Assembly: GCA_016617785.1 (NCBI GenBank) | Contig: JADILM010000010.1 | Coordinates: 310,001 to 374,000 of the forward strand | Direction of reading: 5' to 3' | DNA from: Sporobolomyces roseus | Lineage: Eukaryota; Basidiomycota; Microbotryomycetes; Sporidiobolales; Sporidiobolaceae | DNA: 64,000 bases | Part shown: in pieces, positions 6,012 to 26,757 of the stretch | How positions within the stretch are numbered: position 1 is the stretch's first letter | Layout: every line of letters starts with the position of its first letter | Notes under the pieces: model-generated | Told to the model about the DNA's origin: nothing | Databases searched by the model: none | What the model saw: only the letters and a program-made list of their open reading frames with translations | Made by a program: the position numbers and the translations under genes

Positions 6012-6932
6012 ATGCCGTTAACCCGTCAGGCGATACACTTCACCTTGTTGGCGTTCACTCCGCTAATCCCGATCTACGGACCAATGACTGTCATCTGGTG
6101 GACTGGATGGCTACGTCCTGTCCCCGTCAAGCTCGGGGTCGTAGTGGTCTTCATGATCGCGTGAGTGATCGAACGTTTCTATGATCTGTTTCTGTCGCTG
6201 ATTCGCCCGAACGCTAATCCTCCTATTCCTTGACGGGAGTAAAGCTTCTTCTCCGCCGCAGCTCTCGCTATAGCATTCGCCGGTCCACACCCTTCGTCTA
6301 CCTTCCCTTGGTTCGCATTCACCAATCGTGTGGCATTTTGGGTATGGTGGCTCGTTTCAACTATCGGTCAGTGCCTCTGTTTGACTATCTCGACCTAGCG
6401 GCTGAAGCATGATCGAAAGCGTTTCATAGTTGCTTATCTCTTCCTCTTCTTCGCTTGGAACAACGACCGCGTCACTCGTCGCTTGCGTGCTACACAAGGC
6501 AACAATGTCGAACTTGACGACATGCCGACAGAAGGAGCGGAAGAAGAAGGCAGGCGCTCTCGCGGGAGCAGCAGGAGAGGGTCGGGAAGAATTCGCTCTT
6601 CAAACGCGAGACGTTCTGCTTCCCTTCTCGCGGGACGAGAAGCTCCAGATCCTTTTTCCGGCGAGAGTGTGAGTTACCCTTTCCACGCTCTCTCAAAGTT
6701 GAACGCTCGCTCATCAGATCGATTGGAATGCGAACAGAGCGAAGACCCTACTCAGCATCATCACACGATCGCTGGGCCGTCTCGAAGCGCTAGCGATCGT
6801 CGCGTTCCATCGATCAGAATCCCTCAAGCAACATTCCATCCAGAACGAGGGGAGAGTTCCGCTACATCGAGCTCATCGCCCGAAGGATTCGAGCCTCAAG
6901 TTCATAGTCGCCCGACGCGAGGTGGGAGATGA
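6012..6932 (+). CDS. Three-span membrane protein, tandem family member A
   Basis: I do not recognise a named family. The ATG at 6012 opens MPLTRQAIHFTLLAF. Span 1 contains PLIPIYGPMTVIWW (P-x-x-G-P motif). Span 2 is KLGVVVVFMIAFFSAAALA and is interrupted by an intron at 6161-6244 in phase 2. Span 3 (AFWVWWLVSTIVAYLFLFF) is interrupted at 6367-6429 in phase 1. A charged tail follows: RRLRATQGNNVELDDMPTEG, then many Arg/Ser residues. A GTGAGT...CATCAG segment at about 6669-6717 could be a fourth intron, but reading through it gives a more natural tail, so I left it in. The two membrane-span introns have the same place and phase in B, C, E, F and G, which is the main evidence of common descent. 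Function unknown. Confidence 0.7.
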
Positions 6933-7361
6933 TCAGTGTAATGGGAAGTCGTCGAAGTATAGGAGATGGAAGCGCGGAAGAGCGGACACTGCCGATCTAG
7001 AAACTAGCAAATGAGTACGATTTTTGGAGCTCATCTGTTGGAACGCCGATTCAAATTCCTCACGTTCCTTCCAACTTCACCGTTCTCACCGCGATACTGC
7101 TCGTCCGATGCTCGTGTGGCGCGCTCTGGAAGGAAGCGGTAACAGACGGTTTCCAATCTCCTATTTTTCGCTTCGGGCTCCGCGGGTCTCGGTCAGAAGC
7201 CTCCAGTTTCCCTCTCTTCCCGCTGACAAAGTTCCACGACTTCGAGTCCACGAGTTCCGAAAGCGAAGAGAGCTATGTTCCCTCTTTTCCCTTTCTTCCT
7301 CCTTCTCTCTCCCGCTGCTGCGCCCTCCCGGATTCGCCTTACGACAGCCAGTGCTCTCGCT
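6933..7361. other. Intergenic between membrane genes A and B
   Basis: Holds the end of A and the promoter of B. An ATG at 7275 in frame with B would add a hydrophobic lead (MFPLFPFFLLL), but the pyrimidine-rich stretch looks like 5' UTR. No other feature seen. Confidence 0.5.
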
Positions 7362-8417
7362 ATGTCAAGCCGCGCTAGAGCAGTAACTCATCGACAATGG
7401 CACGGTACCGAAAGGAGAAGCAGGCAACAGACTTCAAGGGCAACTAGCTTTTTTTCTCAAACCTGGGTGCAAATCGCTGTGCGAGTGATCGGCTGTGTAC
7501 CGGTCCTCGGTACAGCACTCGCCGTCGTTCTCCTCTCGTTCACTCCTAATCGCCATGGGCCGCTAGCGGACGGTCAATTGGTCGGCTTCTTTCGCATCGC
7601 TTTCCCTTTCTTGTACAGTCTCAATCTCTTTCTCTCCATACCACTAGGAGAGAGCTGACGACGTCGGATTTTCACGAGTGTCTTGATCTGGAACATCTTG
7701 CTGTATGTCGTACTTTCCGTTGTACCGCACACCTTCGAGAACATAGGCTTCTTTCAAGGGGGCACGCTGCGAGGATGGCTTATCTTTGCCGCATTCGCCG
7801 TGACACAAGTTGCAGGTGAGCTTCATCTTGCGATCCTTTGTGATCCGAGTCGTTGACTTCTACTTTGTTTGTTTCCAATCAGCTTTTCAATTCGTATTCT
7901 GGTTTCTCATCGACAAAGACCATCATCACAATCATGCCGATCGCGAACAAGGAAATGAGCTCGGTGATCTCGGACACAATCCTACAGAAGTCGAGGGACA
8001 GATAGCCTCGTCTGCTCAGCATCGCTCTAGCTCCACCCGTCGAAGTGGTTCTGTCACCGGCCGGTCGAGGCGAATGCAAGGTCAGCCGATATCAAGCAGC
8101 TCAGATTGGGAAGAGACAACCGCAGTGCGTCACTATCTTCTTAGAGTATCAGGAAACAGAACCGTTAGCTCAGACTTTGCGCTGTGACCTAGCACGAGTC
8201 TTTGTCGGATGATGAGCTTGATCACGGAAGGAGGAGCATCTCTCGTGCGTCGAGCACACGTGCATTGATCAACCGGCATGCCCTTATCGCTCAACCCGAG
8301 GCTTCTCACGCTGGCGCTCGCGGCAACGTCGAGGACTCGGAGGAATCTGAGCGCCTGATGTCAGGGGTCCAACGGGTCCGTGCCAGGGCCAGCCGCCGAT
8401 ACAATTCCAGTCAGTAG
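7362..8417 (+). CDS. Three-span membrane protein, tandem family member B
   Basis: Same layout as its neighbours A and C; no named family recognised. The start at 7362 (MSSRARAVTHRQ) gives the short Arg-rich head typical of the family. Span 1 reads VRVIGCVPVLGTALAVVLL, so the P-x-x-G motif is kept but the second Pro is lost. Span 2 (FFRIAFPFL then FVLIWNILLYVVLSVV) is split by a phase-2 intron from about 7614 to 7675, whose acceptor is ACGAG after a GCTGAC branch site. Span 3 (GWLIFAAFAVTQVAAFQFVF) is split by a phase-1 intron at about 7815-7880. The tail carries a His-rich DKDHHHNH, then REQGNELGDLGHNPTE, and many Ser/Arg residues. One more phase-0 intron lies near 8125-8192 before HESLSDDELDHG. 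The stop is at 8417. Confidence 0.7.
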
Positions 8418-8849
8418 TCTCAACCCGTAGAGCAAGAAGTATCAAGTCTGATCAAGTATCAGCGCTCAACTCGTTTTCTGCTCATCTGTACTCTTTGACT
8501 TCCCCCTTGCGTTTGTTTGCCCTTCTGAAATTCTTATAGTTCTCTATCTGATGCCTTACTGCTATCCGTTATCGCTGAGCTGCCTTCCTTGCTCGCTGTT
8601 CGCGAACTTTGCAATCAGAAGTCGAGCTCAACCTCTACTTACGTTCCCACTATCGCCGTTCTGTTCGGCTGCTTGTCGATGTGACGTAGAGTGAGGGGAA
8701 AACGGTTCGCCGTCTTCATCGGGGTTAGAAAAAAAGTCTCATCGTCTCGAAAGACCGCGGGAAGGATCGGACTTTAGTTCCCAAAGCCTTTCTTCCTCTG
8801 TTCAGCTTTTCTTCCCTGCTCGTTCTTGATCTATAGCTTCTCGTTCATC
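8418..8849. other. Intergenic between membrane genes B and C
   Basis: Promoter of C and 3' end of B. A run of seven A's lies near 8731. No gene, no clear TATA box, no repeat seen. Confidence 0.5.
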
Positions 8850-10023
8850 ATGATGCCAAACCGAGCGAGAGGCGTCGAAGTTCTCGCTGCGACGCCTGAA
8901 CCAGGAGAACGGCGCTGGCCTGGTCACCACCTTCAGCCTCAAGATCAAGCTCACGAGAACGTTTCAAAACGCAAGCTCTACCTGAAGCTCGCTGGTCCTT
9001 TCCTCTTGACCTTATGCCCAATTTTCGGTCCACCAATAGTTTGCTGCTCGTTTTGCTTTTTGGTTGCAAAACATCCACACAGGTCAGGTCCTTCTTGTGG
9101 AGGAATTGGAGTAATCGTAGGATTAATGTACGTTCAATCTTCCAATCCGGCTGGCTTGAGAGGGGTGCAGAAGCTGATTCTGAAACGCGGTTATAGACTC
9201 GCGATCGTTTCAATCCTGACTTTCATCGTGACTGGATGGCCTATATATCATCGGGGTGGTTGGAAAATGAGTGGAAATATTCTCGAGAATTACATTGCTG
9301 TCGCTATTTTCTTGGGAATATGGACGGTTGAGGCGACGGGCAAGTCAATCTTTTTCTCCTCTCCTTGTCTCCTCTCAATTCTTTTCCTATCCGGAGAGAT
9401 ACTCACAAAGTTTCCACTTGATAGTCACCTACTTCTTGCTGTTCATGGCGGTCATTTGGCCGGAGTATCACCTTGAGGAAGATTTCGAAGACCCTCTCAC
9501 TGGAGCGCCGCCCGCCTATTCAGATCATCGTCGACACCCTCGACGTCTACCAAGCGCCGAGCCGCCTCTAGACTACATGCGTCGTAATAGGAGTCACGAT
9601 GGTTCGGTCGAAGAATCTTCGGATGACTTGCACCGTGTTCCTTCACGTCAAGCTCCCTCCTTCCATTCTGGACCACCACCTTCTTATGATGGAGGACACG
9701 AGCAGTATCTGGCTCGAGCGTTAGAAGCGCACCAAAACGTGAGTACACTCATCAGAGCAGAATTCGCAAGCTGATCAACCTCGAAACTCCTTTGCTAGGC
9801 TATTGAGATGCAACCTCTGCGTCGTGCGACTTCAGCGAGAACTAGAACTTCTTCCCGGATCGTCGGTCATGAGGTGCAGACGACGTCGGAAGAGGACGAA
9901 GGATTGAACTCGAGCGATTCGAATCGTGCTTCGCAACGACTCGAGGTACCAAGGAGACCTACCTCCCTCTTCTCTACTCATCGTACGAGCTTCAGGGATC
10001 TGGAGAGGCGTCAGTCGAGATAG
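8850..10023 (+). CDS. Three-span membrane protein, tandem family member C
   Basis: Third copy in the left cluster. The start MMPNRARG is at 8850. Span 1 is LLTLCPIFGPPIVCCSFCFL with the P-x-x-G-P motif. Span 2 is split by a 69-nt phase-2 intron (donor GTACGT, acceptor TTATAG at about 9198) and joins as GVIVGLI/LAIVSILTFIV. Span 3 is split by a phase-1 intron at 9340-9424 that begins with GC instead of GT (GGCAAGT), joining WTVEAT to VTYFLLFMAVIW. The tail is long and acidic/Ser-rich, with PPAYSD and PPPSYD Pro-Tyr motifs that resemble binding sites for WW-domain ubiquitin ligases. A last phase-0 intron (about 9740-9798) precedes AIEMQPLRRATSART. I know no function for this family. Confidence 0.7.
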
Positions 10024-10211
10024 GAGGGAGCAAACGGAAATGGATCGAGCCTTCGAAGGTCGAGACGGAAACAGCACGAGTTACAAAGAAGATAACTTTC
10101 TATTTCTAGTACATACCCTGACGAAAGTGAAGCTATTCTAGACAACCGAGAGAGAGGGAAGGGAGCGAGGGAAGAGAACGAGAGGGAGGTTCCTCGGAGA
10201 GACTGCTTGAT

Positions 10212-11427
10212 TTATAGGAGTTGTGGACCATAGAGCTTGGTGAGCTGAGGTGTCCATTCCTTGAAGGGAGCGCCAGAGAGAGTCGTGACCTCGATATCGG
10301 CTACCTTGCTGTTCAATGCAGTAAGCGAACTGTCAGTAAAGTATATGATAAGGGGAGCGCTGAAAAGCGCATGTCGTTCCGACTTCGAGCGGTTCGATGC
10401 AGAAAGTGAAGGAAACGATCCTTACCCAACGTCTAGTGCGTAGAGAGCCTTGAACGCTGCGATAGAAAGGTCTACATGAGGTACCTGAGGTGAGCAGCCC
10501 CCGCATGCATCGACTACTCTGACAATCACTGATTTGTTGTTCGAAGCTAGAGAAGAGGAAAGACGTCAGCACTTGTTCAGCAAGAATCGGCCACATCGGG
10601 TGAATGTGACGTACGAGCCTTCAGCTGGAGGAAGGCACCGCAAGCGGGTTTGCCCTTGCTCCATTCGAGAGTAACGGCAGCGATGAGCGAGTTGTCGGTC
10701 GGTGTCCATCCAGATTTATCGGCGCAGTAAGGTAGGTTCAAGTCGGCTCCAGTATACCAGGTGATGTTTGCGACTGTACGAGAGAAAGGAGATGTAAGAG
10801 GAGAGCCTTCGAAGTGTCGAACTCAGCATCAGGAGACTCACAGATTTTAGGAATCGACGCAGCGATTTTGACGAGTGACCTCTGAATTCCGTTCGTCGAG
10901 CTCGATTGCAAGTTACCGGAACCAGACTTGACGACCTTGTTCACCTTGACCTTCTTCGCTTTGTTTTCCTTCGAACCCTTCGACTTCTTCGATTTCGATT
11001 TCTTCGAAGGTCTCCTCCTATTCTGCTTCTTCTTTGCCCTCTTCTCCAACACTGAACCAGGCAAGATCACGTCCCCTCTCTTCGAGAACTCCAACTCGAC
11101 GACTTCACTCCCGATATCCCTCGATCGTTTCTCATCATCTCCATATTTCCGTTTCTGAAACTTGTTTGCTCGAGGATCTGAAGCTACGTCTCGTTCGAGC
11201 ATGAGACCGTAGGTGGCGGTAATAGTGTCGCGTTTGGTGAGGGAAGAGGAAGGGTTGTAATCGGTGAGGATACCGGATCGTTCGTCAAAGTGGTAGGAAG
11301 AGGTAGAGGGAGTTGACGTCGAAGGAGTTGTGAAGATGGAGGAAGAGTCGTCGGCTGGTAGAGAGAAGGCGAGAGATGGAGTCGCGACGAGAAGGAGAGA
11401 CGCGGCGAAAGCGGTGAGGGAACGCAT
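10212..11427 (-). CDS. Secreted double-psi beta-barrel (RlpA/expansin-like) protein with Lys-rich linker
   Basis: The protein begins with a signal peptide (MRSLTAFAASLLLVATPSLA). A Ser/Thr-rich propeptide-like part with several Lys-Arg pairs (SLTKRDT, EFSKRGD, LEKRAKK) follows; these could be Kex2 sites. A strongly basic linker near residues 125-165 is rich in KSK/KKS. The C-terminal domain, about 105 residues, reads ANITWYTGADLN, CGAFLQLKAS, then VIVRVVDACGGC and VDLSIAAFKAL. This is the double-psi beta-barrel fold of RlpA/expansin-like and plant-interaction proteins, with the usual DxC-G-GC core. Introns follow SIPKI, KA, SPQ and DVG; the one after DVG has donor GTAAGG. Such proteins act in the wall or outside the cell; expansin-type loosening is possible but not shown. 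The 3' end is close to that of membrane gene C, which is convergent. Confidence 0.82.
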
Positions 11428-12257
11428 GATTCGAAGACGAGTTTTAAGCGGGAGCTGAGGTTCGTCGACGAAGGTGAGGTGAAGGAGTGGAAGGGAGTAG
11501 AAGAGGCTGAGAATAGAGCAGAAAGAAGTCGACCTCCTTGCCTCCAGAAATAAACACCTCGAAAGTCGCGACGATTTCGATGCGAACTGGCTTCTTTCTG
11601 CAGGAGAAGCCTCCTTATTTCATCAAAGTAACATTCCGCCCTCCGGCTGTCGATCTCAATTGCCAATTAACTGCTGCTTCTTGCATCTGATCGAGGTCGT
11701 TCGCTGCGGTTTCGAGATTGTAGCGTGGTTGCGAAGATTCGAAAGGGAGGAAAAGTCAATCAATACACCCGCTCGCAAACATCGTCAAGCTGCGGTCTGT
11801 CCTACTCGATCACTAGCTAGATATTCCCTCAGCAAGCTGAGACCTTTAACCTTCCTCTGAGAAGCTGGAACGGAGTGTAAAATTGAGATGAAGATGTGGG
11901 AGAAGGAAGAGCGAAGATGTCCGGGCTGAAGGAGCTGAGTCGATCTATAGCATCAGAGTAGGATGTAGAGTGCTCCTGTACAGTTACTGAGGGTCTCTGA
12001 GGGTTGTAGCGAGAGTAGTCGCTGACCGAGGAGAATTGAGAAAGAAGTCGATTTTGCTTGATCGGTGATTTGCCGCCTTCAAGTGGAGAGATAGCAGAGC
12101 TATGCGACTCTTTGTGAGGCGTCCTAGTCAGCGCTAGAGGGGTGGAGGGAGAAGTTGGCTGATGTCTCTCGGTCTCGATTTCCCGAATCTTTTCTCCCTA
12201 TTTCTTCCTCCTACCACTTCTCTGCCTTGTCTAGAACTGCTCAGTAGCAGTAAAAAT
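11428..12257. other. Long divergent intergenic region (secreted DPBB gene / NADH dehydrogenase)
   Basis: Carries the promoters of two divergent genes. An 11-base perfect inverted repeat, GCAGAAAGAAG at 11518-11528 and CTTCTTTCTGC at 11591-11601, lies about 100 bases upstream of the secreted gene. No open frame looks real. Confidence 0.5.
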
Positions 12258-14174
12258 ATGCTTCGGTCAACTGGAGCTATCGCCTCTACTTCTTCCAAGC
12301 GACTCCCAACATCTCTCGCTCAACTTTCCTCAAAACGGATACCTTCTCCATTCAACTCGAGCTTGGCGGGAGTGAGAGGATTTGCATCGTCACAAAGCTG
12401 GGAGAAGCAAAGATTGGTCATTCTGGGAAGTGGATGGGGAGGATACGAGGTTCTTCGAAAGGTCGACAAAACTCGTTATGATGTGACAGTCGGTGAGTCT
12501 TGCAGTCTCTTATCTTTTGTACGAGTAGCTATCTAGCGTGAAATCTCTACGAGGGTCTCTCTGGTCTCATCGATCCATCTGACTGAAGTATGCCGTTCGA
12601 ATTCACAGTATCGCCCTCTTCGCATTTCGCCTTCACTCCTCTCCTCGCGGGCTGTGCCGTAGGTACTATCGAATACGACTGCGCTGTCGAACCTGTACGT
12701 GCCTACAACAACATCACCTACTATCAAGCATGGTGCGACCAAATCGACATCAAACGGAATCGACTTACCTGCATGCCTGCGATTGGGGTCAATGCGACGT
12801 CGAAGGAAGCGAAAAACTTACCTGGATCAGACAAGAGCTTCGAGTTGGGTTTCGACAAGCTTGTCATCTCGGTTGGATGTTATTCGCAGACATTCAACAC
12901 TCCCGGTGTCAAGGAGTACGCTACTTTCTTGAAGGAGACCAACGTGAGCTGACCTTCTCTTTTCTTGGATGTCGCTGCGCGCTGACCTTTCCGCGCCTGC
13001 GTGTTAATCGATTCGTACAGGACGCTCGCAAGATTCGAGCAAGAATTCTCGAATGTTTCGAACTCGCCGCACAACCCACTCTCACCGACGTCGAACGTCG
13101 TAATCTGCTCAATTTCGTCATCGTAGGAGGTGGACCAACCGGAGTCGAATTCGCAGGAGAACTTTCAGATTTCATCACTACGGATCTCGAACGAGCGTTC
13201 CCGAAACTCGCTCCTTTAGCTCGAATCACGATTTATGATGTAGCACCTGGGATCTTGGGGAGTTTCGATAAGAGTTTGCAGGAGTACGCGGAGAAGAAGT
13301 TTGATAGGGAGGGAATCAGTGTCAAGGGAAATCATCATGTCAAGGAAGTTAAAGAGGATCATCTCATCATTGAGGAGGAAGGAAAAGGTAAGCTCTCGCT
13401 ATCTCTCTGAACTAGCGACTCGTTGCTCACTCTCACGCTCGAGATAGTTCACTTTGGATTACTCGTTTGGTCAACTGGTCTCGCACCGAATCCTCTCATC
13501 GACAGCATCAAGGACCTCGAACACGACGAAAAGACACACTCTCTAAGAGTCAACAACAGCTTCAATCCGGTCGGAACAGATGGGAAAGTTCGAGACAACA
13601 TCTTCGTAATTGGAGATGCTTCTTCCCTCGAAGCCAAATTACCCGCTACTGCCCAAGGTATGCGCGAGCTCTCCTCTATCACAGCTCTTGTAACTGATGG
13701 CAGAAGGAGCTTTGATGTACAGTCGCATCGCAAGAAGCCTACTATTTGGCGAAACACCTCAACAAGCTTGCGAAAGGACAAAAGATTGATCCGGAAGCAG
13801 GTTTCACGTTCAACAACAAGGGTACGATGGCTTATCTGGGAGGATGGAGTGCAGTAATGGATAGGAGCAAAGCAGACCACGGTCCAAAGGGTGAACTCAA
13901 CGGAAAAGCTGCTTGTACGTCAACCTTTTTCGCTCGTCATCTTCTGTGGATACTTACTGACGCTATCGCTTCTGCTCGTAGGGCTTGTAAGTCTCATACT
14001 CTTGCCAGTTGTTACAGAAACCGCGAATTGTTCGCTGATCCTGCATTCTCTTCCCGTTCGCAGCTTTGGAGATCCGCTTACTGGTCGCAAGCGATGTCGT
14101 TACGGAATAAGATGCTACTAGCGTTCTACTGGATGATGACTTGGCTCTCAGGACGAAGGATTACGAGGGTGTAA
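12258..14174 (+). CDS. NDE1: Mitochondrial type II (alternative) NADH dehydrogenase
   Basis: Rotenone-insensitive oxidation of NADH by ubiquinone at the inner mitochondrial membrane. The start at 12258 (MLRSTGAIAS) gives a Ser/Arg-rich presequence; an earlier in-frame ATG at 12162 lacks that character. The FAD site is VILGSGWGGYE and the NADH site is VIVGGGPTGVEFAGEL. VWSTGLAPNP, NIFVIGDAS, and the C-terminal membrane-binding segment WLLWRSAYW follow. Introns: about 12493-12610 (acceptor TTCACAG), 12944-13020, about 13389-13446, about 13659-13703, then two introns (13915-13981 and 13987-14063) around a 5-nt micro-exon, GGCTT at 13982-13986. With it the reading is AA-WLLWRSAYW; without it the conserved segment is lost. 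Internal versus external facing cannot be told; no EF-hand insert is visible. Confidence 0.95.
13982..13986 (+). other. 5-nt micro-exon in NADH dehydrogenase gene
   Basis: The bases GGCTT sit between CTCGTAG (acceptor) and GTAAGT (donor). Inserted between exon end GCT GCT T (13914) and exon start CTT TGG AGA (14064) they complete codons Trp and Leu of the conserved WLLWRSAYW. Confidence 0.8.
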
Positions 14175-14581
14175 TCGAGGATGGACGATTCGATACTGCG
14201 TGAGTAGAGGTTCTTCTCTCTAGCTCGGAAGTGACGTGAGCTGACTCACTGTGCCGAGACTAGTCGGAGTGTATCTGAGTGATCGGGAGCTGGAGTGGGA
14301 ACAGAGAATTAGACGATCAGGATCCTTTCGAGCGATTTCGTTTCTCGCTTGAATTTCACCAAAATATCATTACTCTTTAATCTGTAGCATTTCACTCCGT
14401 ACATAGAAAGATCTTGTAACGAATATGACTACAATACCTCTCCTTAAGTTGCGATCGAATGAAATGCTCGCTTATCTTGCAGTTCTATAACCGATAAAGG
14501 TACGTCAGCGAGAATAAACCTCCAAATCGCCCCACTTCATCTTCCTCTCCTTCCTCCACTTCACAATACGAATCAACTAAC
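14175..14581. other. Intergenic: NADH dehydrogenase 3' end / promoter of small disordered protein
   Basis: AT-richer than its surroundings. It would hold the terminator of the dehydrogenase and a promoter. No coding potential seen. Confidence 0.5.
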
Positions 14582-15217
14582 ATGCCTTCCGACGATCCAT
14601 CACACAAATTCACGCCTACACCACCATCTCAGAACGAGTACGGTAACGACCAGACCCATACAATGGCAGGTTCCGTTGACAGACCCGGAACTCAAGACGC
14701 ATTGAGAGGACAAGGGAACTCTCACGCACGTACCGAGATTCCTAGAGATCAAGTAGCGCCAGCTCAAGGTGCTAGTCAGAATGGAAAGGAGAGCTATAGT
14801 AAGGAGGATAGGAGCAATGTAGCGGGTCAGCCCTTGAACAACCAAGAGCGAGAAATTCCTAATTACATCACGACTGGGAAGGACGAGAGTGAGGCTGGAA
14901 GTACAGGTGGACCAACGGAAGGAAAAGTGAGTTCGGGAAATCGAACCTCGATTCGTTCGAAACTGATTTTTGTATTCGTTGCGAGTCACAGGTCAAGCAA
15001 CCTCCCAAAGATAACAAAGCGAACTTGGTAGAAGCAGGAACGACGATGTCTGGAGACGCTGACGCCTACGGAGGTGTGAGTTCCCCTTTTTCTTTTTGCC
15101 CTCGCAAACCTTTTTCGAAACAGTTGGAATGACCTGACTCTGATACTCGTCAGTTACGTAACACAGCTTGAAGAGAAACACAAGCAGGACAAGACGAAGA
15201 GGAACTCCCATCTCTGA
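14582..15217 (+). CDS. Small hydrophilic, probably disordered protein
   Basis: Not recognised. Three exons encode about 155 residues rich in Gly, Asn, Gln, Lys and Glu, without any hydrophobic segment or Cys. The head is MPSDDPSHKFTPTPPSQNEY. The second exon starts VKQPPKDNKANLVEAGTTM and ends GDADAYGG. The last exon (acceptor AACACAG at about 15169) gives LEEKHKQDKTKRNSHL and a stop at 15217. Introns lie at about 14925-14991 and 15079-15169. The composition resembles stress-related hydrophilin-like fungal proteins, but that is only a resemblance. Confidence 0.65.
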
Positions 15218-15781
15218 GCGGGAGAATCTAGCGAATGAATCAATTAATCTCTTTTCGCCCTGTCAGCTTCTTATTCTCTGTCTCCACACTGCTGTTCCAT
15301 TCTATCTTGTCGTACTCCCAATCGATCAGCTTCAAGCTGAATGTGTTGAAACAGAATCAATCAGTACCCGATTCCATTCGACGAACTAGAATTCTCGAGT
15401 TGCAAGGATTGCGAGAAGAACTCGCAATCTGCCCGTATACGTAGATCATCAAGCCCACGTCTCTCAGGAGGGAACAGAGGTCGCGCTATAGGAAGAGCCT
15501 GTAGGTGTCGTGGTTGCAGATTCCGACGGGAGGAATGGCACGAAAAACAGGACAAAGGGGAACGAGGCGGATTGGGAATGTGACAGGGGATGAATGGTCT
15601 AGCTAACTTGTGAGTTGCGAGTTGGGCATAAGGGTAGGTTCGGGGGAATGGGTAAAGCGAGAGAGGGTCGAGAGCAAAGAATCGTCGGTTTGCATTCGAG
15701 AGTTTAGCACACGACGCTACTAGCCACCAATCGCATTCGTGGTTCAATACTCAAGAAGCTCGACGATGAAGAGAGGGAAAT
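15218..15781. other. Convergent intergenic region
   Basis: Lies between two 3' ends. Open frames exist on both strands but lack splice-supported continuation and known motifs; I see nothing functional beyond terminators. Confidence 0.5.
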
Positions 15782-16937: not shown

Positions 16938-17772
16938 TCAAAACCCTCTACCTTCCTCCACTTCCCTCGCTTCCTCCTCTGTCCACTTCATGAATTCCCT
17001 CAATCTCTCTGTCCGAACCCTCGCCATTTCCCTCCCTTTCTCAGTCTTCATCATCCCTTCCAACTTGACCAACTTGTCCTCGAAATGCGAGATTGCGTCT
17101 CCTCCTGGTTCTCCTGGCGGTGGGAAAGAGCTGGAGGTAGAGGAGGAGGAGGAGGGAAGGTGGAGTGGTCGATTCGTCGCGGCTGAATAGGCACAACATC
17201 TCATGATACCGAACGAACCAATCGCATCCAACTTGTCGGCATCCTGAACGCTGTACGAGTACCTCGATCTAGCTCAGCTACGCGATTTCCAAAGGTTGCT
17301 GAGAGAGGCGAGTCGAGACGTACCAATGTAATTCCCTCGAGCTCTCCCACCATTCCTGTTCCTCCTTCTCCTCTTCGGTTCTCTCTCTATCTCTCATCTC
17401 CTCTATCCTTTTCCCCCTCTTGACCTCCTTCGAATAACTAACATTCTCCACGATCCTCTCTACTAACCTTTTCCTCTCTTGCTCAAACTCGACCTCTCTA
17501 TTCTCCCCCCAGAACGCCTCTAGTCGCTCTTTTGGAGTTTGTGAATGAGTAAGATATTTCTTATCTAGTAAATCATGGAATAGAGCTGCTAGATTGATCA
17601 CTAAGAGATCGAGAGGAGGAGTCGAGGGGAGAGAGTGAGCGATGACGAGTGAGAGGGATGTTACGCGTGATACGTGGTAGATATCATGGGAGGGATCGTA
17701 GGGTGCGTGGTGGGATGTTGCGAGTCGTTGTGCCGAGAGAATGAGCGGGTGAGAGGAAAGTGAAGAAGCCAT
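16938..17772 (-). CDS. HD-domain metal-dependent phosphohydrolase
   Basis: HD-superfamily protein of the YedJ type. The metal ligands are visible: His in SHDIYHVSRV, the HD pair in AALFHDLLD, and the late Asp in CVQDADKLDAIGSFGIMR. Substrate is unknown; the family includes nucleotidases and phosphodiesterases. The start at 17772 (MASSLSSHPLIL) fits the helix that leads into the domain. A single intron (about 17255-17333, donor GTACGT, acceptor GTACAG) joins ELH to CVQDADKLD. A Ser-rich loop (PSSSSSTSSSFPPPG) interrupts the C-terminal helices. The gene is divergent from the RhoGAP gene. Confidence 0.88.
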
Positions 17773-18116
17773 GAGATGGGATCGAGTTGAGCGGAATCAA
17801 CTTGAGTTCGAGTGGGTTCTTGGTAGTTTCGAGTAGCTGTGGAGCCCAAGAATGGCTTTGATACAAGTGAGAAGTGCGGAAAAGAGAAGAGAAGTAAAGG
17901 TTTCGGATTTCTAGCGCGACGACAAGGACCAACTTGCTCTCTTACTGCATCTCTACCTCTTCGACCCTCCAGTTCAGCCAGTGATAATACCCTAGACACG
18001 CGTCAACCGATCTTCAAGAGTTAACACCTAGGGTCTCATCCTCTCTCATTTAATCTGCACCTTCCTCTTCCCTTTCCCCTTTCATCCCCTTTGATCCGAG
18101 ACTACGATACAGTCGT
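17773..18116. promoter_or_regulatory. Divergent promoter: HD hydrolase / RhoGAP
   Basis: 344 bases between divergent start codons. The right part is a long C/T run (18040-18100) typical of start regions in this window. No TATA box seen. Confidence 0.5.
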
Positions 18117-20589
18117 ATGGAGACACTACCGATCTACTACAACGCATCCGACTCGAGCAATTCTTCCTCGTCTCCTTCGACTTCAACTTCAACATCGCCT
18201 CGGACGCAATCGAGGCTCTCGTTCCCAGTTTCAGTCCACTCCTTAGCTTACTCGGAACCATCTACATCAGAGAATGTACCTCCACCGCCTCTACCGACGA
18301 GACCCAGAGGAGGAGAGAGTTCATCTAGACAGAGTAAGAGGGGAAGTGTAATGTTGTTGAACAACGGAGGATGGGGTGGGAACCAACAGGATTGGATGAA
18401 AGGACAATACAACCTTGATCAGCTGAGGGAGGAAGATTCAGATGACGAGGGAGAAGGTTCAAAACGAAAGAACGATAATGCGACTCCATCAAGTTTATTC
18501 CCTGAATCGACTATCAACCTCTCTCAAATCCCACCACGTTCCTCTTCACGTTCTCCCGTACCCCGTCTGGCCCCCTCCTTGCCTCCGAGACCAACGAAAC
18601 TATCCTCTCCCATCTTGACGTCGAACCTCCCTACAACTTCACAAAAGCAACCTCTCGTTTCCCCTTCCTCATGTCCTCCCGCTCTCTCTCCATTCTCAAC
18701 CATGTCATCCCAATCCCTCTCTCACCCTCAACCACGCTCCACAATGGCTCCACCTCCTCTTCCCGTCCGCTCGAAATCTCCTAGATTCCGACCCTCAACC
18801 TCTTCTTCCTCGAATCCCTCTCAAACCTCGACTCTCCCTACCTCTTCCTCTTCCTCTTCACTCAATTTTGGAACCTCGGCACTGTCAGCACTCAATAGAG
18901 GGTTCCGTCAAACTGGATTAAAAGATCGATTTGCTGCTGGAGCCGGATTCGCTCGTGAATGGGGAGGAAAAGGTAAAGGACGATTACAAGAAGGGTTCAA
19001 CACCAATAATGGAAGTACGAGACCAAGTACATCATCGGGAAGAGGAGGAGATTGGGACGGTTCATCAACTTCGACGAGTCGATCCTCGATGTCAACATCA
19101 GCTAGTTCACCGCAACTCGACTCGTTCCCCTCACATCAACTCGCCCCTCCCTCCTCTACCTCCTCTACCTCTCCCTCCTCTCGACAACCAACCATAATCC
19201 TCGGGATCAGAGTACCCTCCCAATCAGGTCTCGCATTCGGAGTACCCCTCTCCCCTCTCGTAGCATCCACCAACATCTCCTCCTCTCGTCCGCACGTCCC
19301 TTACTCCTCAGACCCTATAACTGGAACTCAATCACAACGTTACCTCCCAGCCATCGCTTATCGATGTTTGGAGTACTTGAGCGAGTGGGGTGTCCATGAA
19401 GAAGGGATTTATAGGATTCCTGGTAGAAGTGGCATGGTAGAGATGTTGAAGAGGTTGTTTGATGCGGGATTGGGGAGTGGGATGGAATGTGATTTGAGAG
19501 AGTTTCAACCGGACGAATTGGACCCGAATGCTGTCGCTAGTTGTTTCAAGAATTGGTTGAGATCTCGTAAGAGTCGCCCCTTGTCTCCTGTCTTGAGTGA
19601 GAAGCTGTACTAATGAATACTAGGGAGCAAACAGTACCCGAGAGTTTGTTGGGGAATGATTTGGAACCAGTAGTGGATCAAATCACTCTGAATTATTTAG
19701 GTTACACTGCTTCGTCGACTCAATTCCTCTCTTCCTCTTCAAACACTCCTACGACGTCTCCCAATCCCGATTCGACGAGTGGAAGTAGGAGTGATTATCT
19801 CTCTGAGCTATCTCGGGTGTTCGAGAGAGAGATGAAGGCTGAGAATTACTATTTATTAAGAGCTATCTCGTACGCACTCTGTCTCTCTCTCTTTCTCTCT
19901 GGAATCGGAATTGGGACTGATGGGAGGGAAGGAAGTAGATATCATTTATATATGCTCTCTTCGAATTCCGAGAAGAACAAAATGAACTTGACGAATTTGA
20001 GGTTGATTTTGAGTCCGACTTTGAGGTTGACTCCTGGGTTCTTGATGATCTTGGTTGAGGAGAGGGAGAGGATCTTTAGTGGTGATTGTCTAGGTACGTC
20101 GAATCATTCTCTTCAGTCGCTCGGAACATTATGTGGCTGATAAAAGACTGGCTTTGTACAGACGCGAAGAGAAGAGAAGGAATAGAATCCGAATTAGTTT
20201 CTCCCAACCTCCCTTCCTCTCCAACCTTCAAATCCACCCCCTCCTCCTCCCAACCACAACCACTCTCCCCCGTTCGTCCAATCCCACGATCAATCCCGGC
20301 TCTTCCTCCTCGCCCATCAACAGACGACCCCCGTCCTTCCCTCGATTCAACTCTATCCTCCCCTACTTCACACGAGGATTTATCGACCACTCAGATCTTA
20401 CCCTTTACGAGAGTGCAAAGGGAGGAAGACGAGGTGGTGAGGGAGAGGGAGAGGATTAGGAGTGTCGATCTGAAGTTGAGGTTGCCCGAGGGAGTCGGGG
20501 AGGGATTGGGTTTGGGTTTGGGAGGGATCGAGGGAGTACTCGAGGGGGCTGATCGGAGGGATGGAGAGTTGAATGGGACGAGAAGATGA
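18117..20589 (+). CDS. RhoGAP-domain protein with long Ser/Pro-rich N-terminus
   Basis: GTPase-activating protein for a Rho-type GTPase. The first roughly 360 residues are Ser/Pro/Thr-rich and disordered with PPPLPTRP and PPPLPVRSK proline motifs. The RhoGAP domain begins IILGIRVPSQSGLAFGVPL. It has the arginine finger in GIYRIPGRSG, then FKNWLRSLPESLL and LRAISRYHLYMLSSNSEKNK. MNLTNLRLILSPTL is the usual late helix. Introns: about 19571-19621, about 19871-19931 and 20091-20160. A disordered, Pro-rich tail ends GELNGTRR. The exact Rho partner cannot be told. Its antagonist type, a RhoGEF, lies in the same window at 58.7-64 kb, without evident linkage. Confidence 0.9.
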
Positions 20590-21088
20590 GGGAATTTCAT
20601 ATATCGATCTTCGATCTCGCAAGTCAACCTGAATCACGTAGTCTCTCGACTCTGCACCTCTGCCACAGTCTTGTTCCGCCACTGCTATCCTCCCGCCTCG
20701 CCCACCTTCCGACCTTTCCCCCCTTTCGACAATTTCGCCGTAACCAGTCTTCGACTTTTCTTCCTCGCCTCGCCATACACTTTACGACTCTACAGCCCGG
20801 ATTCCCCTTGTTTATACCCTGTCGATATCACCAGCTTACCTTCCTCTTACCTTAACCTTACCTTTAACAACCTTGTCATCATTTTTAGCTTAGTAGTAGG
20901 AATTTCTAGCAGTTTTCTCTTCATATTGATAGTATATTTCTCCTCCCACATGATTCTTGTCTTCTAGCGTCCTTCTTTCGTTGCGCACTCCCGTCTAACA
21001 GCTGTCTCGAAATGGGGTTGAAACAACATCTCTTTCTTTTCTGCTGCATTGTCGTCTCTCTTCACTCTCTTCACTCCTCACTTCGCTC
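20590..21088. other. Intergenic, pyrimidine-rich
   Basis: C/T-rich throughout. Several frames stay open because of the base composition, but none has motifs or splice support. It should hold the RhoGAP 3' end and the LOG promoter. Confidence 0.5.
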
Positions 21089-22092
21089 ATGTCTCCTTCA
21101 GCTTCTACCACAATGCAACCAGATGATATTACCGTGTTTTGCGGCTCTTCTCCCGGTAACGATGAGGTTTACCTTGAAGTTGCATCATCACTCGCTAAAG
21201 CGATCGCGAGAAGTGGAAAGACTCTCATATAGTATGTCAAACTTCTCTCTACTTACCTCACCGCGCTGAAATGACAATAGAGCTTTCTGAAGAGAGAGAG
21301 AGAGAGACTGATTCTTGTTTGATGATGGAATTGACAGTGGAGGAGGAACGAAAGGCCTAATGGGACAAGTCTCTCGAGTAGCTCTAGAAAATGGTGGCAA
21401 AGTACATGGTATCATTCCTTCAGCCGTACGTCGTCCTCCTGCTCTTCCAGCCTCAAATTCGCTAACTTTCGCTTCCTCCCGCTTTTGTGACTAGTTCCTT
21501 TCGATGGAAGCTCCCGATCGAGCGTCGAGACTGCATCCGAATGAGCAGGAGACGGTGTGTGAATCAATGCATGAGAGGAAGAAGATGTTTGCGGATCTAT
21601 CGAATGCTTTCGTAGGATTGCCCGGGGGATATGGAACGTTGGAAGAATGCATGGAAATGGTTACTTGGACTCAACTACAGATTCAATCAAAGCGTGAGTC
21701 TACAATTCTCGACGAATGGGTGAGGAGAATGGGGTTTTTGACGATTTTGTCGATGGGTTCAGCTGTGGTGCTTTTGAATGTCAACAACTTCTATTCCCCT
21801 CTGCGGCAATTCATTGAAGGGTAAGACTTGACCCTCTCTTCCAATTCCCGTCACTCGAATTGCTGACTCATCCTTCGTTGCACACAGAGCTATTTCATCC
21901 GGATTCATTGCTCCCTCGAATCGGCACTTCCTCCTCTTCGTCGAACCACCGAATGATACAGATGCTTCGACATTCGATTGGGGAGAAGCAGCACTAGAAG
22001 CTATCAGAGAATGGTTTGAGAAAGGTACGGGAGGAGGAGATCAGTTCAAGCTGGATTGGAAGAATGGGGTAAAGAGGAGCGATCTCACCTAA
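21089..22092 (+). CDS. LOG-family nucleoside 5'-monophosphate phosphoribohydrolase
   Basis: Member of the lysine-decarboxylase-like/LOG family. In plants and some microbes these release free cytokinin from its riboside 5'-monophosphate; in many microbes the true substrate is an ordinary nucleotide. Motifs: VFCGSSPG near the start, GKTLIYGGGTKGLMGQ, then the hallmark LPGGYGTLEE. R-K preceding it (HERKKMFADLSNAFVGLPGG) supplies the catalytic Arg. The start at 21089 (MSPSASTTMQ) leaves a short head before the first strand. Introns: about 21231-21340, 21427-21494, about 21694-21759 and about 21823-21887. The stop is at 22092. A GTGAGT...CTACAG pair at about 22184-22260 could be an intron in the 3' UTR. 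It sits at the left border of the second membrane-family cluster. Confidence 0.92.
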
Positions 22093-22329
22093 ATAAAGGG
22101 ACCGACTAGAGCTGGAGGGTGTATATAGATGGATGAGTATTGTGTAGATTGAGGGTCTCAGGCTTAATGTGGGTTGCGAAACAGGTGAGTTCAGTTTCTG
22201 CTTGTTCCTGGTCCTTTCATCCTTTCATCTCGCTTAGCTGACTCAAATGACCGTCTACAGAGATGTAACTTCGAGACGATTCCTCAAGCTCACCCACTTT
22301 ACTCAGTATTCGGCTTTAGACTAGCGAAT

Positions 22330-22637
22330 CTGCCTATTCCCGAGAGACGCCTTGACTCTCTTCTCGCACCTCTTGCTTCTGCTCTTGCTCTTTCTTCTCA
22401 CTTCTTCACTCTGGTTGACACCAAGTATGCCTCCTTTCGACGCGAATCGGTACGAGAATCATCAAGACAATCAGGTACGTCTGACATGGTCTTGCTCTAC
22501 TCCTACGAGGTCAGATCTGATTCGCGTACGAGTCATAGGAGGCCATCATGCTGAATGATTTCGGACATTCAAGTGCAGAAGAATCCGATTCTGGAGAGTA
22601 TCCACTTCGTCAGCCATCAAGTCGACCAGGCCGCTAG
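22330..22637 (+). pseudogene. Relic or truncated copy of the three-span membrane family (D)
   Basis: Only the end of a family gene is visible: an in-frame hydrophobic stretch (LLLLLLLFLLTSSLWL), then MPPFDANRYENHQDNQ, a phase-0 intron at 22475-22538 and the tail EAIMLNDFGHSSAEES, stopping at 22637. The phase-0 intron directly before A-I-x-[ML] is where gene C also has one (HQN/AIEM). No P-x-x-G-P first span or second span was found upstream. It may be a degenerate copy, or a short protein starting at the ATG at 22427; the hydrophobic part could also be just C/T-rich promoter sequence. Confidence 0.4.
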
Positions 22638-23113
22638 CAGGACAACGTACTCTTGAGGGCTTGAGCCAAGACGGATCGAGAGGACAGAGGGGAAAGGATC
22701 GGAGGACCATTGGATTCTTATCGAAACTCGCAATTTTCGGTTGACTACACTTTTTCACCTTCGACACTGCTTCCTGCTTGGGAACGGGTACGCTCAGGAA
22801 GCTTCTCTGGTGCGTTGGTATCTTTGATGGGCTTCACGAGTGCTGCTCTATCCTTCCCGAGTTGTCGTTGAGGGAGATTCGCAAGATTTCGTTCAAGAGT
22901 CAGGTTCGTTCGCTTCGTCTCTCGATGTTACCTTGCTACTCTACTGACCAGCTCTCTCTCGATGGGCTATGATAGAGCCACACGTGACTGCGCTCATCGG
23001 CTAACGGCGAGTCTCCTATTCATTTGGCCCGCGGAGAACAGCGGAGTCTTCCCAATTCCGCTCCCTGACAATCCAGCTCTTCCTTCTCCCTCTCACACTC
23101 ACATTTGACAAGA
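22638..23113. other. Intergenic between relic D and gene E
   Basis: Open frames are short and none shows the family motifs. It probably contains decayed sequence of D plus the promoter of E. Confidence 0.45.
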
Positions 23114-24174
23114 ATGCCGACTCGAGTGATCCCTGCTGCGACTAGGCAATGGTACGGACGAACTCGGGAGCGACGTTCGACTCGCCGCAACCGTGGGAAT
23201 CAGATCACTCGCCGAGATGCGATCAGGTGAGCCTCCTTTGAGCCTATCCTCCGTCAAAAGCCTTACTTCCGAGTCACAACTGACATCATTGTAACCGAGT
23301 AGAGCAGAACACAGCATTTTCCTAACTTCCGCGATTATTCTCTTGCCATTCGCTGGACCGACGCTCGCGTGTTTTTGCACCATATTGATAGCCCATCACT
23401 TCAGACTTTGCACAGAGCTTCGTGACAAGTTCTGCTACGTCATCACCACTGTGCTGTGAGTTCTTTATTCCTTCGTAACCTTGCGAAACTTCCCTCGCTC
23501 ATGGTTCGGTTCTTTCCCATTCTTCAGCGCAATTGGTTTCACAGCTCTGGCTTTCATTGTATCGCAGCTCTATATCGGTGACGACGGCTTCAAGTTTCAT
23601 ACTTCGGATTACCCGGTGCTCAAATTCTTGTCTCTTTACTTTGGCGCAATGATGAGTGAGTCCATCCGCCTCGCAAGCTTGAGCATTCGATCATCATCTG
23701 ACTGACCCCCGAAACACTACAGTGTCGGCTTACAGTCTCTATCGCATGTACAAATCCGAAGCATACCGTCGGAATCATTGGCCTCGAATTCGGGATCAAA
23801 CAGCAGCTCGTCCACCTCCCGATTCGATGGCCGCCGAGGAGGGCGGAGGAGATAGAGCTATAACGTCTCCTCCGTCGATTCCTCAGCCTCGTCACTCTTC
23901 AGGTCGCCCCGCTTCTCAGCATTCGAATGGAGGAGAAGGACCTTCGAATTGGCATCAGAGACCCGTCAATCAAACAATTCCTGCTCATTCAGTGAGTCGT
24001 CTCCTACGTATCGCTCTTAACTCGCGCGTGTTGACAATCCTCGCGGCTCAGGGAAACAACGACTTTGAGATGACGGATTTGGGATTGTCGAGTGAACACG
24101 AATCATCGAATCTCGAAGCTCGTCCAGTCCATCGCTCGCGATTGCTGTTACAGGGCGTGTTGAAGGACGTGTGA
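23114..24174 (+). CDS. Three-span membrane protein, tandem family member E
   Basis: The start at 23114 opens MPTRVIPAATRQWYGRTRER, a basic head. A first intron (about 23227-23306) is an extra one, before the spans. Span 1 is AIILLPFAGPTLACFCTILI with P-x-x-G-P. Span 2, YVITTVLAIGFTALAFIVS, is split by a phase-2 intron at about 23457-23527. Span 3, FLSLYFGAMMMSAYSLYRMY, is split by a phase-1 intron at about 23652-23722. The tail is Pro/Ser-rich; a phase-0 intron (about 23992-24051) precedes GNNDFEMTDLGLSSEHESS, which echoes GNNVELDDM of gene A. No known family; function unknown. Confidence 0.7.
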
Positions 24175-24421
24175 ACGAGGAGGTGTACCTCGCTTCGACC
24201 GGCGATATCCTGACAATGCTAGCCCGACACCCCTAACTTTTTCATCGATAACAAAATCATGGAAACATCTCGGCCCTCTAAGACTGCAAACTTCGTCTGT
24301 CGATCTCTGTCCGTGATCCGTGGAACTTTCCATCTATCTCGACTCGATTTCCGCTTCGTCTTTCTCTTTCTCCCTCTTCACTTTCTATTACCGACACACT
24401 TAAAGAGTTACCTCGAACTAT

Positions 24422-25362
24422 ATGTCTGCTACTCGTCACTCCCGTGGCAATGCTCACACGGAGCTTCCGACCCCAATCACCCCGACAACGCCTCTTCGCG
24501 CGGGAATCGAATACGCTCTCCTCACTGTAGCCCTTTTAGTTTCGTGGATTCCGATTGCGGGACCCATAGCGATGCTAATTCTCCTTATCTTCGTCCGTCC
24601 ATTCAGGCTTTGGTCCAATCACAATTTTTATCTTTTCCTCGGTCTTCTCGCATCGTTCGTAAACTCCTCCTAGTCACAAACTTCGTGATGCGTTACTGAC
24701 GTAGAAGGTCCCGATCCACAGTGTTGCAGCTTTCACTCTCGCCACACCTCTCGAATCAAAGTTTCAAAAGCAAAGGCAAATTGACGGTTCTGAACATTGG
24801 ATTTTTGGCAGAGAGGACGGAGTGGGATACTTCGTTTGCTTTCACATTGCAAATGTACTCTGTAAGTTTGCACTCATATCATATGATGAGGGAGCTCACG
24901 ATCGCTGACTCCTCCTGAAAAGCCGCATGGGCACTCTTCGCATTTGCGGTCAGAGCGGTCATATTAGCGCGTCGTCAGGTCGTCCATTTGCCTCAGGAGC
25001 ACGATTCGATTCCTCTCCAGCCGATTCGTCCGTCACATCAGCAGTCTCACGGCCTATCTCGTCGCGATCCGGTTCGCTTTCGAAGGAGTTCAAGTCTCGC
25101 CCACCGTACTCATGACTATTCGGACGACGAGATGAACTCGGCGTCACTTGATTCGGGCTCTGAAGTCTCGGAGGATCGTTGGTTGCGTTGGGCCCGTCAA
25201 CCGCACGGAACTATTCGAGTGAGCGAAAAAGTTTTTCCCGCTAGTAGCTTTTGCATTCCCTTCGTTCTGACTGATCCCTTCCGGCTTACTGCAACACTCA
25301 TCAGGATCTACCATCCGAAACCATCAGTGGCTCACCTCGTCAAACGGCTTGACGGGTATTGA
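24422..25362 (+). CDS. Three-span membrane protein, tandem family member F
   Basis: The start at 24422 gives MSATRHSRGNAHTELPTP. Span 1 is VSWIPIAGPIAMLILLIF. Span 2 (FYLFLGLLAS/VAAFTLATPL) is split by a phase-2 intron at 24655-24721 with the unusual donor GTTCGT. Span 3 (YFVCFHIANVL/SAWALFAFAVRAVILA) is split by a phase-1 intron at about 24859-24922. The tail has HDSIPLQPIRPSHQQSHG, then Arg/Ser-rich sequence and YSDDEMNSASLDSGSEVSE; a phase-0 intron (about 25219-25304) precedes the short end DLPSETISGSPRQTA. Unknown function. Confidence 0.68.
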
Positions 25363-25709
25363 CTCGAATTATTTCGAAGGAAATAGTAGCTGGAAAAATG
25401 ATGTGGGATTGGCGGGACGAAGCGATTCATGCGTTGTGGTGAATGTTGCAGGAGTAGGAGCTCTGTAGTGGTTTGGCTGCAAAAGATAGGGTTGTAGCAA
25501 TGAAGATGTCGATTTTTGGGAGGTCGGCTAAAGACAATTATCGATTCCGCCTCGATCCACAGCGGGACATTGCCTCTCACAGCCTCCTCGTGGTCGTACG
25601 ATCCCCTGTCTACTGATCCGCGGAAAGAATGATACCGATGAAAGTTTCGCCAAAGTCTGTAACCTTTTGCTTTCTGATTTGTTCCCAATTTCGTGTATCT
25701 GACGGCGAG
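25363..25709. other. Intergenic between membrane genes F and G
   Basis: Promoter of G and 3' end of F. The minus-strand frames over it have no motif and overlap gene G, so I treat them as chance. Confidence 0.5.
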
Positions 25710-26757
25710 ATGCCGCGCCAGAATCACGAAGAATGGTACGGTCAGAGACACTCAGACGTTCAGCATAGTCGAACGAATATACCCATTCGACGAAAGAAGG
25801 GAGCGTTGATCGCTGCTTTCGCGATCGCCCTCTTGATACCATTCTTTGGACCGTTGATGTCAGCACTCATTCTTCGCCCCACGCAAGCTTGGAGTAAGAC
25901 GCTACGTCGATTACACATTTTTGCCTTCATTCTGTTCGTACTTTCGTCCTTTTTCTGAATGTTGACTCGCGAAACTGATGCGGCAGCTGACGGACAGGTT
26001 CGCATGTTGCACGACTGGTACCGTGATCCTCGCTGGGTACAAGCTGTACGAGACTGGTGTTCTCCTCTGGATCTTCACGACCAGAACGGGTCTCACTGTT
26101 TTCCTTGTTCAACATGCGATCTGCGTTTGCTGTAAGCCTTGATCAAAACACGCCTCTACTTCTCGGGACCATGAACCTAACGAGTGAATGAGTAAACAAA
26201 CAGGTGCATGGTTCTTCGGAGTCGCTGAGTGGAGAGCAAATCGGCAAACGGGACGACTTCGAGACTCTCGCTCTCAGCAAGGCAGAGACGCTATCCCCCT
26301 TGAAGAATTTTCATCGTCCGGACATCAGAGGTCGAACAACAGGTCCCGCCATAGCTCGACTCGTACTCCTTCTCGTAGAGATTTGGAGGACTCCGAGGAT
26401 CTAGAGGAGGCAGCGACTTCTTCTTCAGGGTCTGAGATCGAAGCGCTTCATCAACGACGCTCGCTCTCGGGTTATCGTCGACCTGGGGATCGTCCAGCTG
26501 TACGTCCTTTAGCCGATTTCACCTGAATCGACAGAGAGAGGACTCATAGCCTCGAACAAAATCAACAGACTGGAGCTGGAAACGCTCGCTCGGAGTCGCG
26601 CATGTCCCGTTCGCACAGCAGGAGTACCACATCGTCGAACCGAAACCCCTTCGAGGAGTACCCACAAGTCGACTCACCTCCAGGGTCGTCAATTCGATCC
26701 AGTCGAGGCGATCGAGATGGCTCCGGTCGACTCGTCAACCCGACGGAGTTCGTGTAG
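25710..26757 (+). CDS. Three-span membrane protein, tandem family member G
   Basis: The start at 25710 gives MPRQNHEEWYGQRHSDVQ and a basic head. Span 1 is FAIALLIPFFGPLMSALIL. Span 2 (LHIFAFIL/FACCTTGTVILAGY) is split by a phase-2 intron starting at 25934 with donor GTTCGT and acceptor CGGACAG. Span 3 (GLTVFLVQHAICVC/AWFFGVAEW) is split by a phase-1 intron at about 26131-26202. The tail has GRDAIPLEEFSSSGHQRS, matching the IPLQPI block of F, then Arg/Ser-rich and acidic parts. A phase-0 intron (about 26502-26567) joins GDRPA to TGAGNARSESRMSRSHS. The stop is at 26757. Last recognisable member of the right cluster. Confidence 0.7.

Follow-up and report, generated by a model that had tools for sequence, protein, structure and literature searches.

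Reticulons and caveolins are hairpin-anchored membrane proteins, and they share with the proteins described here a hydrophobic stretch that is flanked by basic residues and broken about halfway by proline and glycine. The wtf poison-antidote meiotic drivers of Schizosaccharomyces offer a second comparison: excerpts of the published descriptions present them as multi-span proteins, with more than one gene at several places and frequently close to long terminal repeats (LTRs) (PMC5478263), whose exon and intron sizes are conserved although the sequences differ (PMC9562144). In Saccharomyces, the CCGCGG core found upstream of membrane-protein genes is recognized by the regulators Pdr1p and Pdr3p (PMC3091778). 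Here we describe a family of genes of Sporobolomyces roseus that can be set beside these systems. Six of them (A, B, C, E, F and G) form a cluster in a 64-kb window, the whole stretch of DNA that was analyzed (scaffold C10:310001-374000), and a seventh (H) lies on scaffold C1. Their gene structure, their profile similarity and a P-x-x-G core in the first hydrophobic segment make a common origin of the seven genes very probable. The genome comprises 22,396,975 bases in 15 scaffolds, of which C10 has 1,104,580 and C1 4,742,556 bases.

Gene models and the shared intron series

The six cluster genes were spliced by hand from the sequence, and their letters and positions are those of the window. 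They form two same-strand blocks of three genes (A-B-C and E-F-G), about 13 kb apart, with other genes between. The models, with lengths in amino acids (aa), are as follows; H is placed by its scaffold coordinates.

Gene A, 6012..6932, + strand: exons 6012-6160, 6245-6366, 6430-6668, 6738-6932; intron phases 2, 1, 0; 234 aa.
Gene B, 7362..8417, + strand: exons 7362-7612, 7679-7815, 7883-8124, 8193-8417; intron phases 2, 1, 0; 284 aa.
Gene C, 8853..10023, + strand: exons 8853-9127, 9197-9339, 9425-9738, 9799-10023; intron phases 2, 1 (GC-AG), 0; 318 aa.
Gene E, 23114..24174, + strand: exons 23114-23226, 23303-23455, 23528-23655, 23723-23991, 24052-24174; intron phases 2 (head), then 2, 1, 0; 261 aa.
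Gene F, 24422..25352, + strand: exons 24422-24654, 24722-24861, 24923-25218, 25305-25352; intron phases 2 (weak donor gttcgt), 1, 0; 238 aa.
Gene G, 25710..26757, + strand: exons 25710-25933, 25998-26131, 26204-26499, 26569-26757; intron phases 2 (weak donor gttcgt), 1, 0; 280 aa.
Gene H, C1:1914071-1913043, - strand: exons 1914071-1913815, 1913766-1913636, 1913583-1913309, 1913240-1913043; intron phases 2, 1, 0; 286 aa.

A sequence-only reading of the window had proposed six genes, each with a phase-2 intron inside span 2 and a phase-1 intron inside span 3. All six were found in place, with the second of two in-frame ATGs (8853; the first is 8850) taken as the start of C and 8417 as the end of B, for which a second candidate start lies in frame at 7275. 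The spliced frames are intact and each ends with a stop codon (6/6). Both introns are present in all six preferred models and, in addition to that proposal, a third common intron, of phase 0, was found in the tail of every cluster gene. With H included, the series 2-1-0 appears in 7/7 preferred models. The exon between introns 1 and 2 measures 122-143 nucleotides (nt) in all six cluster genes, and intron 1 is 48-84 nt long across the seven. Gene E carries an additional phase-2 intron in its head (23227-23302).

The intron census covered 264 kb of the scaffold (C10:200001-464000), admitting GTRNGY donors only and including the family's own introns; in its strict form it gave 105 unambiguous introns with a median of 66 nt. 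Seven GTRNGY hexamers passed the filter at rates of 8-19%, versus 0-5% for eleven other GT hexamers and GCAAGT. The seven genes share 21 introns in all, three each; 15 of these have such donors, and the phase is the expected one in 15/15; in E, gtgagt is used at all three. If phases were equally frequent, the chance of 15 phases agreeing would be about 3^-12 (2e-6), a rough figure that is conditional on the chosen exon frames. Note that in G two frames are open in the exon before, where the choice rests on hydrophobicity, and the phases of introns 2 and 3 rest on such choices.

Thirteen of the 21 shared introns were subjected to an enumeration in which every GT/GC-AG pair leaving an open reading frame between fixed anchors was listed. 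The solution is unique, and of phase 2, for A intron 1 and B intron 1 only, and the six solutions for B intron 2 are every one of phase 1. By a crude splice score the expected phase came top in 11/13. The exceptions were H intron 1 and A intron 2, where phase-0 alternatives are present and one of them scores higher. The top solution for G intron 1 is of phase 2 but is a different, GC-donor intron, and F intron 2 ended in a tie. The better-scoring alternatives in A, G and H break a membrane span, and the family-like solution of A intron 2 and of H intron 1 keeps the span whole.

Some introns are unusual in themselves. C intron 2 (9340-9424) is a GC-AG intron (gcaagt) at a place where its relatives have GT donors. 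Non-canonical donors occur at intron 1 in 4/7 genes, namely B (7613-7678, gtacag), F (24655-24721, gttcgt), G (25934-25997, gttcgt) and H (gttctc), the last three having the donor start gttc in common; in H a canonical gtaagc also gives phase 2, but with an intron of only about 34 nt (by eye). C intron 1 (9128-9196) is 69 nt long and has no in-frame stop. Regulated retention of intron 1, within span 2, is conceivable.

Sequence kinship and the seventh gene

In phmmer comparisons (database size 5000), the pairs G-H, F-G, F-H, A-G, A-H and A-B fell below 1e-3 and E-H reached 2e-3, while C was linked to E only, at 0.22; by this measure G is the cluster member nearest to H. Leave-one-out profiles of the full-length proteins gave E-values of 3e-26 for H, 1e-22 for G, 1e-12 for F, 6e-9 for A, 8e-6 for E, 1e-3 for B and 0.55 for C, and for H, G, F, A and E the true score was reached by 0/500 local shuffles. 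Restricted to the membrane part, the profiles recovered C, E, F, G and H (6e-4 to 1e-9, 0/500 shuffles). The idea that the family is recognizable by intron position rather than by sequence was therefore too strong, because profiles recover most members, although they fail for A and B in the membrane part and for C at full length. Membrane-part identity between members is 9-33%. On this measure A, B, E, F and G all have H as their closest relative, and for C it ranks second. Two trees of the family are mutually discordant and weakly supported.

The proposed P-x-x-G-P motif was indeed seen in segment 1 of five cluster genes, with the shorter P-x-x-G in B (P-V-L-G-T). In 7/7 proteins P-x-x-G lies near the middle of this segment, at offset 11-14 in 25-31 aa, the segments being set by eye. 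An automatic rule for a central P..G detects 6/7 family proteins, missing A, where the motif is present just under the hydropathy limit. Applied to the remaining six-frame reading frames (>=60 aa) of the 264 kb, many of them not real genes, the same rule picks 2/380 segments.

Gene H came from a search of the genome with protein G, which matched the place on C1 at E 5e-5; H finds G back at 0.0275, and no other pair was obtained. H was spliced with the family pattern known beforehand. Canonical donors and the expected phases are seen at its introns 2 and 3; its intron 1 is uncertain. Searches of the genome with each of the seven proteins and with a family consensus yielded no further true member, but these searches are insensitive, and the family has at least seven members. 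The profile scan of the 264 kb around the cluster recovered the six members, and the best other frame among the matches listed had E 0.18.

Several weaker matches were considered and rejected. A match of F on C9 (E 0.096) looked on visual inspection like an oxidoreductase. Consensus matches on C6 (E 0.02) and C5 (0.06) contain a '(N)DSIPL' stretch and a single hydrophobic segment in place of the three-segment layout; further weak consensus matches lie on C9 (0.18) and C3 (0.8). The stretches C6:352501-353100 and C5:1655851-1656350 are near-alike, intron included, with one hydrophobic segment, and probably represent a gene duplication. F also contains their DSIPL stretch, and similar stretches are present in G and H. 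Just upstream of E, the region 22184-22640 shows intron-like signals and a Ser/Arg-rich reading frame. It might be a decayed family member; it gave no profile match among those listed in the 264-kb scan, and 22189-22554 gave no Pfam match.

No named family had been recognized from the sequence, and none was found here: in Pfam, nothing exceeded the curated cut-off for any of the seven proteins. E has a sub-threshold 7tm_3 match (E 0.011, 15.9 of 33.5 bits), and the PF00001 profile matched neither the family nor the controls, which makes it ill-suited. A PDB search gave weak matches only (best E 0.29). In a protein database, the six-protein alignment had no match at E<=1 among the 7990 candidates with most shared words that were scored, and H had none at E<=10 among 6579 scored. 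Literature searches returned no match for lineage-specific transmembrane genes of Sporobolomyces and nothing on tandem, rapidly evolving fungal transmembrane genes with conserved intron positions. The family, so far seen only in one assembly, is probably restricted to its lineage.

Membrane layout, upstream element and neighborhood

The short basic head and three spans of the sequence-only reading held up in part: three hydrophobic segments are present, but the head of A consists of 6 aa with one positive charge. All seven heads are net positive, and in 6/7 proteins loop 1 carries more positive charge than loop 2, with a tie in B. The start of the tail (20 residues) is acidic for B and C, neutral for F and positive for the other four (A, E, G and H). 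If segment 1 forms a hairpin, then head, loop 1 and tail lie on one side, and so the charge pattern fits this layout better than three straight spans, except for the tails of B and C. We give a topology of one hairpin (segment 1) plus two spans an even chance. Unlike reticulons and caveolins, the family has no Pfam match to these proteins, and it has two more spans and a long R-x-x-S/T tail. In the tails, R-x-x-S/T occurs 43 times versus 28.8 expected, a count reached in 0/1000 shuffles. Sites of this form are those of basophilic kinases of the PKA/AGC type. A codon score placed the true frame above both other frames in 6/6 cluster genes.

Upstream of five genes lies the hexamer CCGCGG, at the following window positions.

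CCGCGG, 5920..5925: 92 nt upstream of the gene A ATG.
CCGCGG, 7180..7185: 182 nt upstream of the gene B ATG, and 95 nt from the alternative ATG at 7275.
CCGCGG, 8755..8760: 98 nt upstream of the gene C ATG at 8853, and 95 from that at 8850.
CCGCGG, 23029..23034: 85 nt upstream of the gene E ATG.
CCGCGG within TCCGCGGA, 25618..25623: 92 nt upstream of the gene G ATG.

The hexamer is thus present within 350 nt upstream of 5/7 genes (A, B, C, E and G), compared with a background rate of 1.7% in 727 windows (p 3e-8, uncorrected for the roughly 1200 hexamers), and its distance from the ATG in A, C, E and G is 85-98 nt. It was not found within 350 nt upstream of F or H. In C10:200001-464000 there are 18 CCGCGG sites versus 37.5 by first-order expectation, about half. 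CCGCGG followed by 76-98 bases and ATGCC occurs at 37 places genome-wide, four of them being A, C, E and G, versus 19 for the reversed pattern; a pyrimidine tract is often present at these places, by eye. Since there are 37 such places, the element is not private to the family and looks like a more general one, a candidate promoter element of S. roseus.

A heme lyase gene (window 4437-5429) adjoins the cluster. Its protein is 78% identical to that of S. roseus JCM5353, 54-67% identical to proteins under eight other Sporobolomyces names, and 99% identical to an ENA protein. Since the identity with JCM5353 is only 78%, the two strains called S. roseus may be different species. By Pfam, other genes of the window encode a protein kinase (2637-3263, - strand), an HD-domain protein (17278-17796, - strand, just under the cut-off) and a RhoGAP (18054-20140, + strand, in two reading frames).

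Explanations for the divergence

The explanation that we favor, with moderate confidence, is one diverged paralogous family of membrane-anchored, tail-regulated proteins. Gene structure, profile similarity and the P-x-x-G core give good support to the tandem duplication with strong divergence that had been suggested for the cluster. One ancestral gene with three introns of phases 2, 1 and 0 would have sent a copy to C1, or have come from there, and would have formed the cluster by tandem duplication on C10 (1.10 Mb), after which the proteins would have diverged to their present membrane-part identities while the intron positions were held fixed. Each protein would sit in the membrane with its basic head, basic first loop and long tail on the cytosolic side. 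Segment 1, with P-x-x-G-P about halfway along, would bend as a hairpin, and spans 2 and 3 would border a short aromatic loop, luminal or outside. Basophilic kinases (PKA/AGC type) may then switch the R-x-x-S/T-rich tail. As to what the proteins do, a membrane-anchored, phosphorylation-regulated scaffold or sensor with specialized copies is a guess that we offer tentatively.

Several results weigh against this explanation or parts of it. Six of the shared introns have non-canonical donors: at intron 1 these are gtacag in B, gttcgt in F and G, and gttctc in H; at intron 2 they are gtcagt in A and gcaagt in C. Solutions in another phase exist for 10/13 enumerated introns, in genes A, C, E, F, G and H; they make up 6/9 for A intron 2, 8/11 and 3/7 for C introns 1 and 2, 3/5 and 2/4 for E introns 1 and 2, 7/11 and 2/5 for F introns 1 and 2, 3/6 and 2/5 for G introns 1 and 2, and 9/10 for H intron 1. 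At full length, shuffles reached the true score in 7/500 cases for B and 19/500 for C, and for A the best shuffle came within 0.7 bits of it (33.4 versus 34.1 bits), so tail composition carries part of the signal of A. With the membrane part alone, shuffles reached the true score in 133/500 cases for A and 391/500 for B. Given these weak profile results, A, B and C are counted as members mainly for their gene structure and motif.

Further reservations concern layout, tail, codon use and lineage. The segment limits and the hairpin are a reading of hydropathy and charge. Other tail motifs are only mildly enriched (RR-x-S 66/1000, RRS 35/1000 and CK2-like 33/1000 shuffles), and S/T-x-x-D/E is not enriched (147/1000 shuffles). 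Codon bias is weak, at 0.02-0.08 per codon, and synonymous choice alone contributes about zero (-0.014 to 0.034). The lineage restriction rests on the two protein-database searches, which are word-based and may miss diverged or mis-modelled proteins. In addition, residues 42-160 of H have a sub-threshold match to DUF4153 (PF13687; E 5e-4, 19.8 bits, cut-off 27). This could be a distant relation; none of the six cluster proteins matches DUF4153 at E<=1.

The strongest of the other explanations is that the family is old and fast only in appearance, its divergence reflecting age or weak constraint, with topology and splicing kept and the copies acting as partly redundant anchors. This is possible, at lower odds than the favored explanation. 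In support of it, H is nearest to five cluster genes and second nearest to C, as if it kept ancestral features; the upstream CCGCGG element precedes other genes too, and the six cluster copies are all intact. Against it, H has no relative at E<=10 in the protein database, though the heme lyase is listed there under nine Sporobolomyces names (these are perhaps not whole protein sets).

We consider it unlikely that the genes are a selfish or recognition family, that is, arms-race membrane proteins like the wtf drivers or allorecognition factors, in which conflict drives turnover. The likeness to wtf, taken from the excerpts cited above, lies in multi-span proteins, diverged paralogues, several genes per locus and a conserved exon-intron layout, and the intact copies with low identity and no relatives in the database searches would fit. 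However, wtf genes have five or six exons, whereas the genes of this family have four (five in E) and encode three hydrophobic segments. The exon after intron 1, moreover, has no initial Met in 7/7 genes and none in its first 7 residues; a Met is absent from this exon in four genes, and stands at residue 24 in C, 41 in E and 8 in H. Intron 1, at the lengths given above, was judged too short for a wtf-type internal promoter. As for the LTRs that often accompany wtf genes, the excerpt on the S. roseus CGMCC 2.4355 assembly reports 930 bp of LTR in total (PMC8643702), and window positions 4000-30000 show short repeats only. No further or decayed copies were seen among the matches listed in the 264-kb profile scan, and the STE3 receptor gene maps to a different scaffold (C11), so that the pheromone-receptor locus lies elsewhere. 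This separation from wtf rests on descriptions, no wtf sequence having been compared. A narrower form of the idea, a Sporobolomyces-specific family diversifying under conflict or self-recognition, wtf-like in logic and not in sequence, with H as the ancestral, perhaps non-selfish copy, appears more doubtful still.

Equally unlikely is a drug or stress response family, in which a Pdr1/Pdr3-like zinc-cluster regulator acting on CCGCGG would induce membrane proteins that protect against xenobiotics. The enrichment of CCGCGG upstream of the family, its narrow placement at -85 to -98 before four of the genes (A, C, E and G), and its identity with the core bound by the yeast regulators speak for this. 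Against it, F and H lack the element, which also stands before other genes, in excess of its control. Unlike the Saccharomyces regulon, the family shows no match over cut-off to ABC transporters, nor to any other Pfam family. Finally, that unrelated three-span genes were over-read, with introns placed by hand to match, is very improbable: weak donors, other-phase solutions and the splicing of H with the pattern known, above all at its intron 1, leave room for it, but, as the sequence-only reading had also judged of chance, it is hard to reconcile with 15 canonical donors agreeing in phase, a third shared intron, the profile similarity, the P..G core, and a seventh gene found outside the window by sequence search with its introns 2 and 3 as expected.

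In the favored explanation, a single diverged family, the shared ancestry of the paralogues is visible in gene structure at least as well as in protein sequence. This bears on what share of 'orphan' genes are diverged relatives that escape ordinary searches. Seven genes in one yeast make a tractable set for telling conflict, relaxed constraint and new functions apart, and an intron phase series combined with a small motif could identify such families elsewhere.

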